37,094 bases of DNA. It comes from a virus. The notes under the pieces are model-generated. The model did not search any database. It was given only the letters and a program-made list of their open reading frames with translations, and had not been told where the DNA came from. Below are positions 13,487 through 19,921 of this stretch, one piece after another (positions within the stretch are counted from its first letter, which is position 1; every line of letters starts with the position of its first letter). The stretch covers positions 1-37,094 of IMG/VR virus record IMGVR_UViG_3300034418_003885; one strand, given 5' to 3'. Both the position numbers and the translations under genes were made by a program.

Positions 13487-14260
13487 ATGCAATACGAAAT
13501 CAGTGCAACAGACTACTTTGCGATCATCCCCGAAAAAGTCCTGTACGCAGACATCAGTCACATCTCGGTACGCATCTACGGAGTGTTACGCAGACACGCA
13601 GACCAAACAGGAAGCTGCCACCCCGGACGGGCAAGAATAGCGAAACTCGCACACACAAGCGCAAGTTCAGTAGACCGAGCCATACAAGAACTCGTCGAAC
13701 ACGGCTTCATCACCGTCCACCACAGACGCAACCCCGACAATCCACAACAAATGCTGTCAAACAGGTACGTTATCCACAGCACCCCTCCCGCCCATGACCA
13801 TACCCCTCCCGTGGGTGATGATACCCCCCTCCCGCTGGTGACGACACCCCCTCCCGCCAGTGACGAAGTAACCATAGCCATAGAACCAAAGCCAATAAAC
13901 CACTTCGAGGAATGGTGGAACACCTACCCGAAACGGGTCAACCGCAAAGCCGCACAAAAAGCATGGAAAACAGCAACCAAAACAACCAGCCCACAAGCAA
14001 TCATTGAAGCAACACGCCAACAAATCGCAACAACAGGCAGCCCACTATCAAGAGAAGACATCTACATCCCGATGCCATCCTCCTGGCTCAACGCAGGAAG
14101 CCACCTCGACCAATACGGAACCACAGAACCATCCAGACCATACGACCAACCAACACCCCATCACTGCAACAGATGCGACAGCACCGGACACATCACAAAA
14201 ACAGATGAAAAAGGCTACTCATACGCACACCCATGCCCAAACTGCAATGATATAATCTAA
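13487..14260 (+). CDS. Replication initiator: winged-helix N-terminus, zinc-ribbon C-terminus
   Basis: A 257-residue protein. Residues 25-95 form a winged-helix domain of the phage/plasmid replication type (ISVRIYGVLRRHADQTG, then HTSASSVDRAIQELVEHGF). Residues 100-125 are a Pro/Thr/Asp linker encoded by the iteron DNA. Residues 139-205 (FEEWWNTYPKRVNRKAAQKAW ... PMPSSWLNAG) are a motif common in phage replication organisers. The C-terminus has CNRCDSTGH and CPNCN, a DnaJ-like zinc ribbon. The ATG has GGAGG 4 bases upstream. It presumably binds the iterons inside its own gene and recruits host replication proteins, as lambda O does. No helicase gene is present, so the host one is probably used. 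Confidence 0.82.
   Translation: MQYEISATDYFAIIPEKVLYADISHISVRIYGVLRRHADQTGSCHPGRARIAKLAHTSASSVDRAIQELVEHGFITVHHRRNPDNPQQMLSNRYVIHSTPPAHDHTPPVGDDTPLPLVTTPPPASDEVTIAIEPKPINHFEEWWNTYPKRVNRKAAQKAWKTATKTTSPQAIIEATRQQIATTGSPLSREDIYIPMPSSWLNAGSHLDQYGTTEPSRPYDQPTPHHCNRCDSTGHITKTDEKGYSYAHPCPNCNDII
13770..13867 (+). other. Putative replication origin: DnaA box plus four iterons
   Basis: A perfect DnaA box TTATCCACA at 13770-13778 is followed by four copies of a 20-bp unit, CCCCTCCCG, then 3 variable bases, then RTGAYSAN. The copies lie at 13782-13801, 13803-13822, 13826-13845 and 13848-13867. Start-to-start distances are 21, 23 and 22 bp, so the third copy sits in a different codon phase from the other three, yet its bases are kept. 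That argues the DNA, not the peptide, is conserved. The array lies inside the initiator gene, as lambda origin iterons lie inside gene O. Confidence 0.75.
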
Positions 14261-14607
14261 CCACCGGCCCACGCAGGCCGCTCAGGTCGTACCCTCGTTG
14301 CACAGGGCGGGACGCAACCCACGGAAACGTGGTCGATCTCTCATGCGTAAACGACGATCCCATAGGAACTCTCGCTAAGGCAGGAAGACGAGAGAAGCAC
14401 GAACCCGCGAGGGCGACAAAAACCAACCTAAACGTAAAGCTCCACGACAACGAGCGGGAATCAGGAACAGCGGCACCCTGATGGGGGACAAACACCTCCC
14501 TAAGTTCCCAACCAATCCAACAAAACCACACATCTCAAACACAGATAATATGGATGTACGGCCCCCCTGCCTTCGGCAGATAGCCGGTCGGCTGGCGGCA
14601 CCGAAGG
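14261..14607 (+). ncRNA. Candidate structured RNA downstream of the initiator gene
   Basis: No credible gene lies here. Instead there is a chain of hairpins, starting 5 bases after the initiator stop: CGGCC/GGCCG (14265-14280), GTTGC/GCAAC (14297-14318), CCACG-GAAA-CGTGG with a GNRA loop (14319-14332), CTCTCG/CGAGAG (14369-14394), ATCAGG/CCTGAT (14460-14482) and GGGGG/CTCCC (14483-14500, one G-U). Last is CCTTCGG/CCGAAGG (14570-14607), enclosing AGCC-GGTC-GGCT. Such density suggests a folded RNA or a structured part of the origin. I could not match it to a known family. It is not a recognisable tRNA or tmRNA. Confidence 0.5.
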
Positions 14608-14653
14608 TAACCCCTCTGGCGTTATTCATCATAATGTGGGCGTGGGGGCATGG

Positions 14654-14770
14654 CGAACAAACGTTCGATTGTGGATAACCCCCCCCATCGTGTAAAGGTT
14701 GCCTAACATGTTAGGGATGCTTAACACAGTGCGCCTATGGTCGAACGTATGTTTGTCGAACATGTGTTTG
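14654..14770. promoter_or_regulatory. Regulatory/origin cluster: 15-bp repeats, DnaA box, 14-bp palindrome
   Basis: Three copies of a 15-bp motif TCGAACGTATGTTTG: two head-to-tail without a gap (14741-14755 and 14756-14770) and one inverted (14654-14668), each with two mismatches to the first. A perfect DnaA box on the minus strand (TGTGGATAA, 14670-14678) is followed by eight C residues. The perfect palindrome CCTAACATGTTAGG lies at 14702-14715. Bases 14771-14822 are GT-rich and hold nothing else I recognise. This may be a second part of the origin or operators for the promoters just downstream. Confidence 0.5.
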
Positions 14771-14909: not shown

Positions 14910-14938
14910 TTGACAAGTTCGCAAGTTTCTGATACAGT
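14910..14938 (+). promoter_or_regulatory. Strong early promoter (proximal of a tandem pair)
   Basis: TTGACA (14910-14915), a 17-base spacer and TACAGT (14933-14938). The -10 is the same hexamer as in the initiator promoter. Transcription would start near 14945, about 20 bases before the ATG at 14966. Confidence 0.7.
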
Positions 14939-14949
14939 GTTATCAACAT

Positions 14950-14965
14950 AGAGAAAGAGAGAGAT
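14950..14965 (+). promoter_or_regulatory. Purine-rich repeated leader, copy 1
   Basis: AGAGAAAGAGAGAGAT directly precedes the ATG at 14966. It belongs to a repeated translation leader found before at least six early genes (15202, 15705, 16229, 16921, 17320). It contains no GGAGG, unlike the ribosome sites of the minus-strand genes. Confidence 0.6.
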
Positions 14966-15157
14966 ATGAGAAATTCCGAGGCTCGTTTCAAGGGTAAGGA
15001 GATAGCGTTTGTGAATGGTGTTTATTACCGTTGCGTAGACGATGGGGCGTGGGATGAACTCGCCAACACATACGAGTGGAATTCTGCCGAGTCCCAACTT
15101 GTTCGTGAACATTACGAGCGTGCTTTAGACCGTATTGAGACATTTCTAGGTATCTGA
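14966..15157 (+). CDS. Small early protein, unknown function
   Basis: A 63-residue protein beginning MRNSEARFKGKEIAFVNG, with a basic start and an acidic, helical end (ERALDRIETFLGI). It is the first gene behind the tandem promoters, so it is probably made early and abundantly. No domain was recognised. Placement suggests a host-takeover or anti-defence role, which is inference only. Confidence 0.6.
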   Translation: MRNSEARFKGKEIAFVNGVYYRCVDDGAWDELANTYEWNSAESQLVREHYERALDRIETFLGI

Positions 15158-15201
15158 GACTGACCTACTCAACCTGAGCATGTTGTAAAACTGCTCAACC
15201 C

Positions 15202-15220
15202 AACAACAGAGAAAGAGAGA
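15202..15220 (+). promoter_or_regulatory. Purine-rich repeated leader, copy 2
   Basis: AACAACAGAGAAAGAGAGA, 4 bases before the ATG at 15225. The identical 19 bases recur at 15705-15723 and 17320-17338. An upstream hairpin TGAGCA/TGCTCA lies within the 67-base gap between the genes. Confidence 0.65.
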
Positions 15221-15224
15221 CAAC

Positions 15225-15533
15225 ATGACATATTCACACGAGGCAACAGAGTTGCGTCTGTACATTGTGAACGATCATCATTTATGGATGGATCGTCGCC
15301 CAGAGTTCTGGCGAAACCTTGATCGGCATATGGTGCGAGGCAACTTCGACAGTGATAAGGCGATCACGTTACTGATGTATCTTGTCAGTGAGGCAGCTCG
15401 CCAGTATTGTAAGGAGTTCGGCGGTACTGTTCGCAGTGTGTTCCCTAAGGATGTGCGAGAGAGTGTCGCACGCCATCTCTTAGAGTGTTACGCTGACGAC
15501 TTGCGTGACGCAGAATGTGAGATGGCATCGTGA
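15225..15533 (+). CDS. Early protein of a widespread phage family of unknown function
   Basis: A 102-residue protein. The pattern LRLYIVNDHHLW ... NFDSDKAITLLMYLVSEAARQYCKEFG ... VFPKDVRESVARHLLE resembles a small family I recall from many marine and actinobacterial phages and some mobile elements, in which DSDKA and the final FP..VR..A segment are the most constant parts. No activity is known to me. It is preceded by the 19-base leader repeat, and its stop overlaps the next GTG start. Confidence 0.7.
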   Translation: MTYSHEATELRLYIVNDHHLWMDRRPEFWRNLDRHMVRGNFDSDKAITLLMYLVSEAARQYCKEFGGTVRSVFPKDVRESVARHLLECYADDLRDAECEMAS

Positions 15534-15778
15534 GCGCAGTCTGGCAGAGTCCGAGCGATCGAGCAAAAGACTCAGCGCACACGCAGGGTTACGAATTAGA
15601 GTGCTATTCGTGTGGCAAGGTTGGCGAAATTGGCGAGCAGTTTCGTCTAGTTAGTTGGGGTCGCCAATGTTGCGACTGCCAGAGTTACGAGGTTCACGTT
15701 ACACAACAACAGAGAAAGAGAGAGAGAAATGAGAACAACGTATTGTGTGTGGTATGCGAGTGCAGGTTGCCTACCTGA
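15530..15778 (+). CDS. Small zinc-ribbon early protein
   Basis: An 82-residue protein starting at GTG within TCGTGA, a 4-base overlap with the previous stop. Residues 23-52 hold CYSCG and CCDC, a CxxC...CxxC zinc ribbon. The C-terminal 25 residues are translated from the leader repeat of the next gene (VTQQQRKRERNENN) and overlap that gene by 50 bases, which is unusual. They may be a by-product of lacking an earlier stop. A DNA- or protein-binding role is likely but unspecified. Confidence 0.55.
   Translation: MSAVWQSPSDRAKDSAHTQGYELECYSCGKVGEIGEQFRLVSWGRQCCDCQSYEVHVTQQQRKRERNENNVLCVVCECRLPT
15705..15723 (+). promoter_or_regulatory. Purine-rich repeated leader, copy 3
   Basis: AACAACAGAGAAAGAGAGA, identical to the copies at 15202 and 17320 and extended by GAGAA up to the ATG at 15729. 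It lies inside the coding end of the preceding gene. Confidence 0.65.
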
Positions 15779-15923
15779 CAGTGAGTACCCTGAGTTTGTT
15801 GGCACGCTTAACGAGTGCGAACAGTGGATAGTTGATAATGAGCATGACTATGTGCGACCCGATGTTGTGCATGACTTGTATTCGCTGAGTGTTGGCGAGT
15901 GGGAGGTTGACGACGATGAGTAA
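15729..15923 (+). CDS. Small acidic early protein
   Basis: A 64-residue, strongly acidic protein (EWEVDDDE at the C-terminus) with aromatic residues throughout (CVWYASAGC near the start). It is preceded by the repeated leader, and the next gene starts inside its end. No family was recognised. High negative charge and small size are compatible with a nucleic-acid mimic or inhibitor, but nothing specific shows it. Confidence 0.55.
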   Translation: MRTTYCVWYASAGCLPDSEYPEFVGTLNECEQWIVDNEHDYVRPDVVHDLYSLSVGEWEVDDDE

Positions 15924-16089
15924 GCTTTACCAATTAGACATGACTCGCATGTCATTCTTCACCATTTTTGTAGAGGCTGAGACTGAGGCTGAGGCTCGCA
16001 TGTTGGCAGAGAATGGCGACTATGAAGAGCATTACATTGAGACTGAGGTTGAGATAGGTGAGTGCTATTGCGAAGAGGTTGCGTCGTGA
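15916..16089 (+). CDS. Small acidic early protein
   Basis: A 57-residue acidic protein beginning MSKLYQLDMTRMSFFTIF, followed by a helix (VEAETEAEARMLAENG) and a Glu-rich end with two cysteines. The ATG at 15916 has GGGAGG 9 bases upstream and overlaps the previous stop by 8 bases. The form F-x-V-E-A-E-T-E-A-E-A resembles small phage proteins with a beta-alpha fold. Function unknown. Confidence 0.55.
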   Translation: MSKLYQLDMTRMSFFTIFVEAETEAEARMLAENGDYEEHYIETEVEIGECYCEEVAS

Positions 16090-16247
16090 TCGCACATTTT
16101 ACTGAGACACAAATTATGGATATGAAGATAGGTTTCACTGCGCTCGCATTGTTGGCAGTGTTCCGAGTTGGACTCTATGCGTGGGATACTCGCAACGATT
16201 TTGACAGACCGAAGAAACATGGTGACATGAGAAAGAGAGAGAACTAA
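16086..16247 (+). CDS. Small single-pass membrane protein
   Basis: A 53-residue protein starting at GTG in TCGTGA (overlapping the previous stop). One hydrophobic helix (GFTALALLAVFRVGLYAW, about residues 16-33) is followed by a basic tail (RPKKHGDMRKREN), so the C-terminus is probably cytoplasmic. The tail codons also form the leader repeat of the next gene. Its stop overlaps the next ATG (TAATG). Superinfection exclusion is one possible role, without direct support. Confidence 0.5.
   Translation: MIAHFTETQIMDMKIGFTALALLAVFRVGLYAWDTRNDFDRPKKHGDMRKREN
16229..16242 (+). promoter_or_regulatory. Purine-rich repeated leader, copy 4
   Basis: GAGAAAGAGAGAGA, 4 bases before the ATG at 16247. It is a shortened form of the repeated leader and here also encodes the end of the membrane protein gene. 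Confidence 0.5.
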
Positions 16248-16765
16248 TGAGACTGTCGCTAGTTGACAACATTCCCGATGACTCTATTGTTGAGAGTCTT
16301 TTGGAAGGTGAACGCCCAACATGGCAGTGTGCCGAAGGTACGTTTCGGTTCACGTTCCGTGAAGAGGATGATGAGTTTTGCGATGTTCGTGATGACGACT
16401 GGTATGGGAAGATTGAGAGAGCTGACTCTCACCCATATCGGTTTGGGTGTAACGCTCAAAGGCCTGAAGGTTTTGATGGACGTGCTCGTCTGTTGAAGAC
16501 TCGTTACGATGCAGTGTGGTGGCAACCTGACGATGACATGGATGATGTGATGATTGAGAGTGCTCGTGAGGTTTTGATGAACATTCTCGAATATGGGTAT
16601 GTTGCTCATTCTGTTGAGGTAGAACGTAAGTGTGACTGTTGCGATAGGTGGAGTACCGTTGCGTCGTCGTATCGTGGTGGTAACGAACCGTTTCGCAGTG
16701 TGGGGTCTTACGATATGTCCGAGTTATTGTGGGAGGCTCTTGATTACACGGAGGTGGAGTCGTGA
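16247..16765 (+). CDS. Acidic early protein, unknown function
   Basis: A 172-residue acidic protein, the largest of this block apart from the initiator. Asp-rich stretches (REEDDEFCDVRDDDWYG, about residues 38-54) alternate with aromatic residues. Residues 128-135 (CDCCDRWS) are a cysteine cluster that could bind a metal. The ATG overlaps the preceding stop by one base. No family was recognised. The later part (YDMSELLWEALDYTEVES) is helical. Confidence 0.6.
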   Translation: MRLSLVDNIPDDSIVESLLEGERPTWQCAEGTFRFTFREEDDEFCDVRDDDWYGKIERADSHPYRFGCNAQRPEGFDGRARLLKTRYDAVWWQPDDDMDDVMIESAREVLMNILEYGYVAHSVEVERKCDCCDRWSTVASSYRGGNEPFRSVGSYDMSELLWEALDYTEVES

Positions 16766-16938
16766 GGCTTACGAGACAACGATGGGAAACGATAGTTCGT
16801 GCTATGAATTTTTGGGAAGCGGAGGTTGAAGATATGGAAGTTTTTGACCACCCAGATGCAAGCCGAGAGCGTAGACAGTTTGAGTCTGCGATGGAATATG
16901 TAATGTCAATAGAACCGATAAAGAAAGAGAGTAAGTAA
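16762..16938 (+). CDS. Small charged early protein
   Basis: A 58-residue protein starting at GTG in TCGTGA, with GGAGG upstream, and beginning MRLTRQRWETIVRAMNFWEA. It is a mixed-charge, helical protein ending in Lys-rich PIKKESK. Its stop overlaps the next ATG (TAATG), and the last codons make up a diverged leader repeat. No family was recognised. Tight coupling on both sides supports it as real. Confidence 0.5.
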   Translation: MRLTRQRWETIVRAMNFWEAEVEDMEVFDHPDASRERRQFESAMEYVMSIEPIKKESK

Positions 16939-17273
16939 TGAACAATGGAGAGCAAGTAACGTGGACAGTGTGCGACACACCACCTGAGCGTGCATACAAA
17001 AAGAAAACGAGTTACCAGAAATGGTCAGAGATTTTTACACAAATTGGTGAGTCAACTCATAATGAGTGGGTTCAGCTGGATGGCGAGTTCAGTCAAGGTG
17101 AGGCTCAGTCTGTGTACCAGGCTGGTCGTCGTCATTCTGAGGCTGGCACGTTGGGGAAGGTGAACATCGCTATGCGTACTGCGCGTGTGTTGGATGAGTC
17201 GTATCGTGATGGTGCGAAGAAACGTATGTACAGTTTGTTTATTCAAGTAGAAAAAATATTTGACAAGTCTTGA
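16938..17273 (+). CDS. Early protein, unknown function
   Basis: A 111-residue protein beginning MNNGEQVTWTVCDTPP, with a basic and helical end (RTARVLDESYRDGAKKRMY). It is near neutral overall, unlike its acidic neighbours. No motif was recognised. The start overlaps the preceding stop, and the stop codon lies within the promoter at 17260-17288, so a new transcript begins as this gene ends. Confidence 0.55.
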   Translation: MNNGEQVTWTVCDTPPERAYKKKTSYQKWSEIFTQIGESTHNEWVQLDGEFSQGEAQSVYQAGRRHSEAGTLGKVNIAMRTARVLDESYRDGAKKRMYSLFIQVEKIFDKS

Positions 17274-17288
17274 CAAGTATGTTATGAT
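17260..17288 (+). promoter_or_regulatory. Strong internal early promoter
   Basis: TTGACA (17260-17265), a 17-base spacer and TATGAT (17283-17288). A second TTGACA lies in the spacer at 17270-17275. Transcription would start near 17295 and serve the genes from 17345 to 18462. Confidence 0.75.
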
Positions 17289-17319
17289 GTTATTTATCGG
17301 TACTCTTAGTTGAGTGTCG

Positions 17320-17338
17320 AACAACAGAGAAAGAGAGA
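17320..17338 (+). promoter_or_regulatory. Purine-rich repeated leader, copy 5
   Basis: AACAACAGAGAAAGAGAGA, identical to the copies at 15202 and 15705, before the ATG at 17345. Another ATG at 17340 is followed by a stop after six codons, so 17345 is the start. Confidence 0.65.
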
Positions 17339-17344
17339 AATGAA

Positions 17345-17632
17345 ATGGAAGATATTGTAGTTCAGATTAGTGCGTCTGCGCTTTCTGACCACATGAACAG
17401 GTTGTACCAAGATGGTGATGAGCGGGATGTTTTCCCTCACATCGACGAGGAAGGTGCGACCATCACGTTTATCAAAGCAGGTAAGCGTAGTTGTGTGGTT
17501 AGTTTGACTCGGCCTGCGTTGGTTCAGTTCATTGACGATATGGATTATCAGGTTGAGTTTGCTGAGGATGCGCCTGCGTACACTGCGATGTGCAGGCGTG
17601 CGCTTGCCAAGTTGAGGGAGGTGGCATCGTGA
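17345..17632 (+). CDS. Small early protein, unknown function
   Basis: A 95-residue protein beginning MEDIVVQISASALSDHMNRL, with predicted beta strands (ATITFIKAG, CVVSLTRPALVQF) and a helical basic end (CRRALAKLREVAS). It is the first gene behind the internal promoter, and its stop overlaps the next GTG. No family was recognised. Confidence 0.58.
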   Translation: MEDIVVQISASALSDHMNRLYQDGDERDVFPHIDEEGATITFIKAGKRSCVVSLTRPALVQFIDDMDYQVEFAEDAPAYTAMCRRALAKLREVAS

Positions 17633-18529: not shown

Positions 18530-18780
18530 ATTTCGTTCCACCCTCTGTTTGTTGCTCGCCAAGCGACCGCAGGGTTAGCGTCAATAACTTGTGATGCTTG
18601 TTGACCGCTTTCGTACAGTCGTACAACATGCACACAGATGTCGTCGCCATCCATCATTTGTTCTTCTTCTTCATCTGACGTTGGCAGACCGTCATGGGTA
18701 ACGCAAACGGGCGGTGAACACCAGCCTGCCAGCCACCCTATCTTTGCCCAATGCTCAAATGCTGTTTCGTCTAGTTCCAT
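18499..18780 (-). CDS. Small acidic protein next to WhiB genes
   Basis: A 93-residue protein beginning MELDETAFEHWAKIGWLAG, with an acidic stretch (SDEEEEQMMDGDD) and a helical end (NPAVAWRATNRGWNEIKKQ). The ATG at 18780 was chosen because AGGAG lies 8 bases upstream. An ATG 18 bases further up has no such site. It overlaps the WhiB gene by 26 bases and is the last gene of the minus-strand operon. Family unknown. Confidence 0.55.
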   Translation of the reverse strand: MELDETAFEHWAKIGWLAGWCSPPVCVTHDGLPTSDEEEEQMMDGDDICVHVVRLYESGQQASQVIDANPAVAWRATNRGWNEIKKQPPASEK

Positions 18781-19081
18781 AGTTGTCTCCTGTGTCATCT
18801 AACCCTGTGATGATTTGTTTTTTCGGGCCTGGTTTGTTGCGTTCATGTATTCTGCCGGTGCGTATCCGGTGTCGTTCTACTGGTGTGGTGCCACCGAAGA
18901 TGCCGTAATGATCTTCGATGAGCTTGAATGAGAGTGCGTACTCTAAGCAGTCTTGTTTGACTGGACAGTGCTTGCAGATTGCTAACCCGTATTCTTTCAG
19001 TGAGGGGTAGCCGTCTGGTGGGTGGAACCAGTCGGGGTCTGCTCCTTTGCAGGCGGCTTCAGTCATCCAGTCGGGTGTCAT
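18755..19081 (-). CDS. WhiB-like iron-sulfur regulator, copy A
   Basis: A 108-residue WhiB-family protein. The four cluster cysteines are C11, C36, C39 and C45 (CKHCPVKQDC), which in this family hold a 4Fe-4S cluster. GIFGGTT is the family beta-turn and the basic tail (RHRIRTGRIHERNKPGPKK) the DNA-contacting part. WhiB proteins bind the principal sigma factor. The phage protein WhiB of TM4 is known to lower host whiB2 expression and block superinfection. A similar host-control role is likely. It overlaps the second WhiB gene by 23 bases. Confidence 0.9.
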   Translation of the reverse strand: MTPDWMTEAACKGADPDWFHPPDGYPSLKEYGLAICKHCPVKQDCLEYALSFKLIEDHYGIFGGTTPVERHRIRTGRIHERNKPGPKKQIITGLDDTGDNYGTRRNSI

Positions 19082-19382
19082 CGTCTTTTAACCCTAGCCG
19101 TTTGCGTTCTACCCGTCTGTCGTTTGGTGTCATCCCACCCCATATGCCCATGAGTGAGCGTTCTGAGAATTGCACTGCCCATTCAAGGCAGTCTTGTTTG
19201 ACGGGGCAGGTGTTGCAGATTGCTTTTGCTTCTTGGATTCTTTTTGTTGATGCGCCTTTTTCGGGGAAGAATGTTCCGAGTGATACGTTTTTGCAGGCAG
19301 CTTTGTCTCTCCATTTTTCTTTGTCTGGGTCGAAGAAGATTTGTGAGAGGGGCAACCAAACTATGTCTCTGTTTCGTTTCAT
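19059..19382 (-). CDS. WhiB-like iron-sulfur regulator, copy B
   Basis: A 107-residue WhiB protein with cysteines C30, C56, C59 and C65 (CNTCPVKQDC), the GIWGG turn at 79-83 and a basic end (NDRRVERKRLGLKDDD). The ATG at 19382 was chosen because it overlaps the preceding stop (ATGA). A much longer open frame upstream only shadows the lysozyme-like gene. The two WhiB proteins share the cysteine core but differ at both ends, so they are diverged paralogs or separate acquisitions, probably with different targets. Confidence 0.9.
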   Translation of the reverse strand: MKRNRDIVWLPLSQIFFDPDKEKWRDKAACKNVSLGTFFPEKGASTKRIQEAKAICNTCPVKQDCLEWAVQFSERSLMGIWGGMTPNDRRVERKRLGLKDDDTRLDD

Positions 19383-19921
19383 GTGCAGTATTTGTAAGGG
19401 TTTTTTAGGCTCATGTACCAGGGTTGCGCCCAGCATCCGTAGTTTGTTTCGGCGTATTCGGCTAGCCAAAGTGCGGCAACCATGTTGGTGAGCGGGTCGA
19501 ATAGTTGTTCGGGTTCGGTGATGTTGAGTTCTGTTGTCAGCCATTCGTGGTGTGCTGACCATTGGATTTGGAGTACGCCGTATGCGCCGGTGCCGACAAC
19601 ATCTGTTTGTCCTCGTGATTCGTGGTATGCGATGAGGTCTAGTGTTGGTAGTCGGTCGGTCGGCCATCCAGCTTCAACGGCAGTTATCCACAGGTCTGGG
19701 TATCGTGCGGTTTCGATTGCAGGGATCGGCTCAGTGGTGGTGGTCGTAGTAAAAACCGCAGTCGTTGTCGTGGTTGTCGTGTTGCTCGCCTTAGAACGCA
19801 ATCTAGGGGGGTCTGAAGCGATTGTGGAGGTAGGGGGAGCCACCTCTGTTGGGGCTTCAGTAGTTGCGTTGTACCCAAGCATGGATATGACAAGGAACAC
19901 TACCCAAGAAATGATTTTCAT
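19379..19921 (-). CDS. Secreted lysozyme-like protein with Thr-rich linker
   Basis: A 180-residue protein. Residues 1-18 (MKIISWVVFLVISMLGYN) are a signal peptide or membrane anchor. Residues 20-70 are a Pro/Thr-rich linker with runs of Thr. Residues 75-180 carry a transglycosylase/lysozyme-like fold: LDLIAYHESRGQTDVVG with candidate catalytic E101, then GAYGVLQIQWSAHH and a two-cysteine end. It would act outside the membrane on peptidoglycan. It is separate from the lysis genes and next to WhiB, so it may serve superinfection control or envelope remodelling rather than lysis. Alternatively it is virion-associated. Confidence 0.75.
   Translation of the reverse strand: MKIISWVVFLVISMLGYNATTEAPTEVAPPTSTIASDPPRLRSKASNTTTTTTTAVFTTTTTTEPIPAIETARYPDLWITAVEAGWPTDRLPTLDLIAYHESRGQTDVVGTGAYGVLQIQWSAHHEWLTTELNITEPEQLFDPLTNMVAALWLAEYAETNYGCWAQPWYMSLKNPYKYCT

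Follow-up and report, generated by a model that had tools for sequence, protein, structure and literature searches.

We report that a short purine-rich leader, represented by the 19-mer AACAACAGAGAAAGAGAGA, is repeated before unrelated small genes of an uncultivated virus, and that it probably serves as a lineage-specific, start-associated ribosome-binding site whose copies also mark the boundaries of gene cassettes. The analysed window is the entire virus record of 37,094 bases. Portal and terminase genes occupy its minus strand, the replication initiation (Rep) gene lies on the plus strand, and 3' of the latter a block of small plus-strand genes extends from 14966 to ~18.4 kb (Table 1). The block is presumably early, judging from its adjacency to the replication gene. 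None of the block genes tested against Pfam scored above the curated cut-offs. Known phages gave no nucleotide match to the block and only remote matches to the terminase (<30% identity among the matches listed), a search of genome contigs recovered no relative, and an Rfam search of the 37-kb window returned no match. The two WhiB genes of the minus strand indicate a likely actinobacterial host, since, to our knowledge, WhiB proteins are confined to actinobacteria and their phages.

Table 1. Leader copies and neighbouring features of the 37,094-base window.
Feature	Position	Strand	Context
Portal and terminase genes	~9-13 kb	-	
Replication initiation (Rep) gene	13487-14260	+	
Four tandem 22-nt CCCCTCCCGC-type repeats	13782-13872		inside the replication gene
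Noncoding element	14290-14505	+	between replication gene and early block
Near-palindrome (81%), core CCTAACATGTTAGG	14690-14727		just 5' of promoter-like sites 14823 and 14910
Promoter-like TTGACA-17-TACAGT	14910-14938	+	precedes leader 14950
Leader copy AGAGAAAGAGAGA	14950-14962 (core 14952-14961)	+	before gene 14966-15157
Inverted repeat TGAGCA-N11-TGCTCA	15175-15198	+	5' of leader 15202; single copy in window
Exact 19-nt leader	15202-15220 (core 15210-15219)	+	before gene 15225-15533
Exact 19-nt leader	15705-15723 (core 15713-15722)	+	before gene 15729-15923
Leader copy GAGAAAGAGAGAGAA	16229-16243 (core 16230-16239)	+	before gene 16247-16765; doubles as last codons of upstream ORF
Core copy AGAAAGAGAG	16922-16931	+	before gene 16938-17273; overlaps 3' end of gene 16762-16938
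Promoter-like TTGACA-17-TATGAT	17260-17288	+	consensus match only (11/12 positions, TG before -10); ~30 nt 5' of leader 17320
Exact 19-nt leader	17320-17338 (core 17328-17337)	+	before gene 17345-17632
WhiB gene	18755-19081	-	
WhiB gene	19059-19667	-	

The three identical copies of the 19-mer, each preceding a start codon, were found exactly where the original prediction had placed them, and 100 shuffles gave 0 matches. Of the shorter forms, those at 14950 and 16229 stood as described, while the third begins at 16922 rather than 16921. A search of both strands over the whole window located the core AGAAAGAGAG six times on the plus strand and never on the minus strand. All six cores end 4-7 nt 5' of a gene-opening ATG; because only ~4% of positions on the plus strand here stand at that distance before an ATG ORF (40 codons), this association is far from chance, and the leader repeat is a genuine, non-random feature. 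Every copy lies in the plus-strand block adjoining the Rep gene, with none among the structural genes, and two of the six (16230 and 16922) sit within the end of the upstream gene. No paralogy was found among the early ORFs of the window, so the genes served by the leader are unrelated. Gene duplication as the source of the repeat was ruled out by this lack of paralogues together with the unrelated flanks.

As had been claimed, the leaders lack GGAGG. The accompanying claim that minus-strand genes contrast by using strong GGAGG sites was overstated: some GGAGG or partial sites are present there, but within 20 nt of 34 putative minus-strand starts GGAGG occurs at 4 and GGAG, GAGG or AGGA at 14, and several genes of the same plus-strand block (16762, 17629 and 17888) also use GGAGG.

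The original prediction implied that the leader is unrelated to the 16S rRNA tail, a premise that proved wrong and was discarded after testing the actinobacterial tail rather than GGAGG only, with pairing possible to its distal UUUCU part. The comparison with the 16S 3' end that had been proposed as a check thus found complementarity: the leader can pair as AGAAAG-(bulged A)-GAG with the actinobacterial 3' end 5'-CUCCUUUCU at the usual spacing. The sequence CCTCCTTTCT terminates or follows the 16S gene in many actinobacteria, mature 16S rRNA ends as in Streptomyces, and the mature end of this host was taken from the actinobacterial tail. Complementarity to the 16S 3' tail at the proper spacing would place the leader among Shine-Dalgarno sites, with one bulged base and a host tail modelled on actinobacteria. 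Duplex energy was ~-9.7 kcal/mol with the CCUCCUUUCU tail; an E. coli-type tail, paired in the same register, gave ~-5 kcal/mol. In five leaders, 3-6 nt separate the end of the predicted duplex and the start codon; that of gene 17345 adopts the same register, and its predicted duplex extends to the start. Most GGAGG-type sites of the block form stronger duplexes (-13 to -17) than the leader, and since 3-26% of shuffles of the same purine-rich leaders match the observed energy, duplex energy or complementarity carries little weight by itself. The 19-mer also includes AACAAC, for which 16S rRNA offers no partner, and the perfect match AGAAAGGAG hardly ever precedes a start in these phages (1 linked), a rarity that plain 16S matching does not explain. 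In predicted RNA folds, leader starts were unpaired at 0.68-0.87, compared with 0.33-0.56 at six GGAGG-type or other starts.

A search of related phages, also proposed as a check, bore out the association for the nearer relatives, in which the core is start-linked, while more distant ones carry repeated leaders of their own instead. Across related contigs, AGAAAGAGAG was start-linked in 18/18 cases on the Rep-side strand versus 1/3 on the terminase strand. The reversed 10-mer GAGAGAAAGA occurred once in the terminase-family loci, and plain purine richness is therefore insufficient. One contig, L015, is a 99.9% identical piece. L016, ~75% identical where aligned, contains four AGAAAGAGAG leaders and a second leader, AGAGAAAGAGAAAGAGAA, twice. 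In L065, whose terminase is 99% identical, all three copies read AGAAAGTGAG and precede three unrelated genes; this form differs from the core only at the unpaired (bulge) base, A to T. Further away, the repeated leaders are TAGATGGGAGTCTA (L081), GATTAGGAGG (L086) and GAGAGAGAGG (L061).

Among 31 non-redundant early regions, a 10-mer at the ribosome-binding position was shared by 3.5% of within-genome gene pairs versus 0.48% between genomes, a ~7-fold difference, with 0-0.26% sharing within genomes at control positions away from starts. With the window and L016 excluded, the values were 1.9% within and 0.28% between genomes, and 0/500 permutations reached the observed count. A protein-led search for additional early regions yielded few loci. 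No paralogy was found among the genes following shared leaders in the genomes checked. The leader of the window is thus one case of a family-wide habit.

A pattern scan of viral contigs was biased by design, as loci were selected for a leader before an ATG, and only other occurrences of the core in those loci were counted. Among the matches listed, these were start-linked in 29/37 cases versus 20% at random positions. In L110, all seven of seven copies of the core preceded starts. As a side observation, L110, L194, L177, L178, L159, L182 and L216, apparently unrelated to the window, each hold between three and seven AGAAAGAGAG-type leaders linked to starts among the matches listed. With few exceptions, the scanned contigs had no detectable relation to the main proteins of the window. 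The recurrence of one 10-mer before the starts of unrelated viruses favours the ribosome as their shared reader.

The leaders coincide with breakpoints of homology. Homology between the window and L016 starts at leader 15705, stops at 16222 by leader 16229, and stops again at the ATG after leader 16922; homology with L065 stops at 15220 and 16240. Leader 17320 is unchanged in L016, and a 27-nt segment spanning it and the start codon recurs in L065, with the bulge A changed to T, before an unrelated gene. Similarly, leader 15202 closes a 54-nt segment, including ~40 nt of upstream sequence, that stands before an unrelated gene in L065. At leader 16922 a 19-nt identity has homology on one side only, so that short identity between non-homologous modules, as at a mosaic boundary, is found here and at the 27-nt and 54-nt islands. 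Genes 17345 and 17629 are in reversed order in L016, and gene 16762, which has a GGAGG site in the window, has the leader at its L016 orthologue. Overall, 19 homology-block ends lay nearer to gene starts than random (p ~0.0002). The suggestion that the repeats seed gene shuffling was thus upheld as regards breakpoints on leaders and near-identical segments before unrelated genes, but nothing proved leader-specific: the GGAGG sites 17601-17624 and 17876 also mark breakpoints. Because GGAGG sites act alike and selection for intact genes would yield similar border breakpoints, we interpret the leaders as cassette borders and claim no dedicated recombination signal.

Several further elements adjoin the leaders. 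With a promoter-like site directly upstream, leader 14950 would be at the very 5' end of its mRNA. We rejected a reading of the leader as a DNA promoter or operator, since its position is tied to the start codon and not to promoters, only two of the six copies having a good promoter-like match just upstream. L065 retains the TGAGCA/TGCTCA inverted repeat 5' of its own leader, where another gene follows. Gene 17345 has a second ATG 5 nt ahead of its start (window 17340-17360), which opens a tiny overlapping ORF, MKWKIL-stop; the matching site in L065 reads MKWKM-stop before an unrelated gene. The near-palindrome resembles an operator or a site of replication origin. The noncoding element following the replication gene is conserved in 9 related contigs; its consensus fold comprises 37 pairs, 7 of them with pair-keeping changes on both sides, and it had no Rfam match at E up to 1, making it a candidate new structured RNA. 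The ends of many related contigs, e.g., L025-L027, L036, L037, L041 and L054, fall near ~14400-14700, upstream of the terminase gene, and L015 and L016 begin there; the genome may physically end at this place, or a terminal repeat or the border of a variable region may lie here. Repeats similar to the tandem ones in the replication gene are present in relatives, e.g., L042.

The original proposal of a translation element is supported by the start spacing, the complementarity to actinobacterial 16S rRNA, the predicted open RNA and the GGAGG exchange at an orthologous gene. In the mechanism we favour, the mRNA core AGAAAG-A-GAG would pair with the 16S end (5'-...CCUCCUUUCU-3') from its place 4-7 nt 5' of the start, leaving one base unpaired (A here, T in the near relative), and the composition of the leader would keep the start region open, as it has nearly no U and little C. 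The leader would serve small, mutually unrelated genes within a single block and be interchangeable with ordinary GGAGG sites. As repeated DNA at gene borders, it would also be where cassettes are joined and replaced. Such exchange would probably spread one version through a genome, and each lineage would therefore have its own leader.

Alternatively, a phage or host protein, or a small RNA, could bind the leader in trans and switch the translation of the gene set, with co-evolution producing the lineage versions; a binding site for an early RNA-binding protein was among the original suggestions. Such regulation would account for a leader that is near-uniform within a genome and differs between genomes, for an identity that reaches past the 16S-pairing part into AACAAC, for the rarity of perfect 16S matches, and for the alteration of all three L065 copies at the same base, which 16S pairing leaves unconstrained. 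Nevertheless, the same 10-mer precedes the starts of several viruses to which no relation was detectable, the fixed ATG spacing and the swapping with GGAGG sites are predictions of a ribosome site, and no candidate factor was identified; we regard this explanation as unlikely. Quite unlikely, in our judgement, is a more specific scheme in which the near-uniform, imperfectly 16S-binding leader of each lineage is read by a co-evolving protein or RNA factor that would switch the whole set during infection, with leaders and factor turning over together.

The copies could also be short repeats retained mainly for single-gene exchange by the phage recombination system, ribosome binding being incidental. 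A YqaJ-type exonuclease and an SSB are among the phage proteins, homology blocks begin and end at leaders, identity islands of 54 and 27 nt surround leaders between unrelated genes, and the window and L016 do not have the same gene order. However, breakpoints fall equally on GGAGG sites, viable exchanges land at gene borders regardless, and recombination has no need for a 4-7 nt spacing to the ATG or for a single strand, so that we consider this role improbable as the main one. It is very improbable that the leader is a generic unstructured, purine- and A-rich stretch before the start whose sequence has no specific role and which strand purine bias has amplified: the block does have a strong plus-strand GC skew, and the 16S pairing of shuffled leaders is often nearly as good, but one specific 10-mer predominates in one orientation, unlike its reversed and permuted purine counterparts, and the 19-mer is exact three times amid unrelated flanks.

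Comparable sequences have been described in cultured phages. The start-associated sequence (SAS) of Cluster K mycobacteriophages is a short, asymmetric repeated element that stands a few bp ahead of starts, in one orientation, only in the non-structural region and before genes of different families; it combines partial 16S complementarity with extra conserved non-pairing bases (Pope et al. 2011, PMC3203893). Its sequence is GGGATAGGAGCCC, with an AGGAG core, and most copies have >50 bp of intergenic space; at about half of the sites a 17-bp imperfect inverted repeat lies upstream (ESAS), and the consensus of these inverted repeats varies by subcluster (PMC3203893). Like the SAS, the leader is repeated in one orientation, 4-7 nt before starts in 6/6 copies (typically 3-7 for the SAS), is restricted to non-structural genes and serves different families. 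Unlike it, the leader deviates from GGGATAGGAGCCC at more than two positions and shares no AGGAG; its AGAAAGAGAG core lacks GGAG and would pair nearer the 16S 3' end, and two leaders are inside upstream genes. As for inverted repeats, a general 17-bp one was not seen, and one leader (15202) is preceded by the TGAGCA/TGCTCA repeat. By analogy, the leader appears to work like an SAS but is not the Cluster K SAS. Cluster EF Microbacterium phages have an SAS-like GGGAAAGGACCCC, with ten near-identical, 16S-complementary copies at the ribosome-binding position (PMC7302621); these cultured phages of a different cluster present the same position class, with a sequence differing from both that of Cluster K and the leader. 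Extended Shine-Dalgarno sites (the AGAAAGGAGGUGAUC complement of a 16S ending in CCUCCUUUCU) use the same tail and spacing class, whereas the leader, unlike ordinary sites, contains one interrupting base and recurs in almost identical form. Short conserved boundary sequences have been proposed as promoters of phage mosaicism (discussed in PMC3029335). The leader resembles them in its short identity at borders where unrelated genes meet, and differs in that the border coincides with a putative ribosome-binding site, promotion of exchange being only a candidate role.

Start-associated sequences were thus already known from a small number of cultured actinophage clusters (PMC3203893, PMC7302621). 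In the present case, different repeated leaders occupy the same type of position before unrelated genes in several contigs of a single family of uncultivated phages. These variants form a natural series in which the ribosome, a trans-acting factor and recombination could be tested as the keeper of leader uniformity, and they provide a concrete case of gene replacement at putative ribosome-binding sites.
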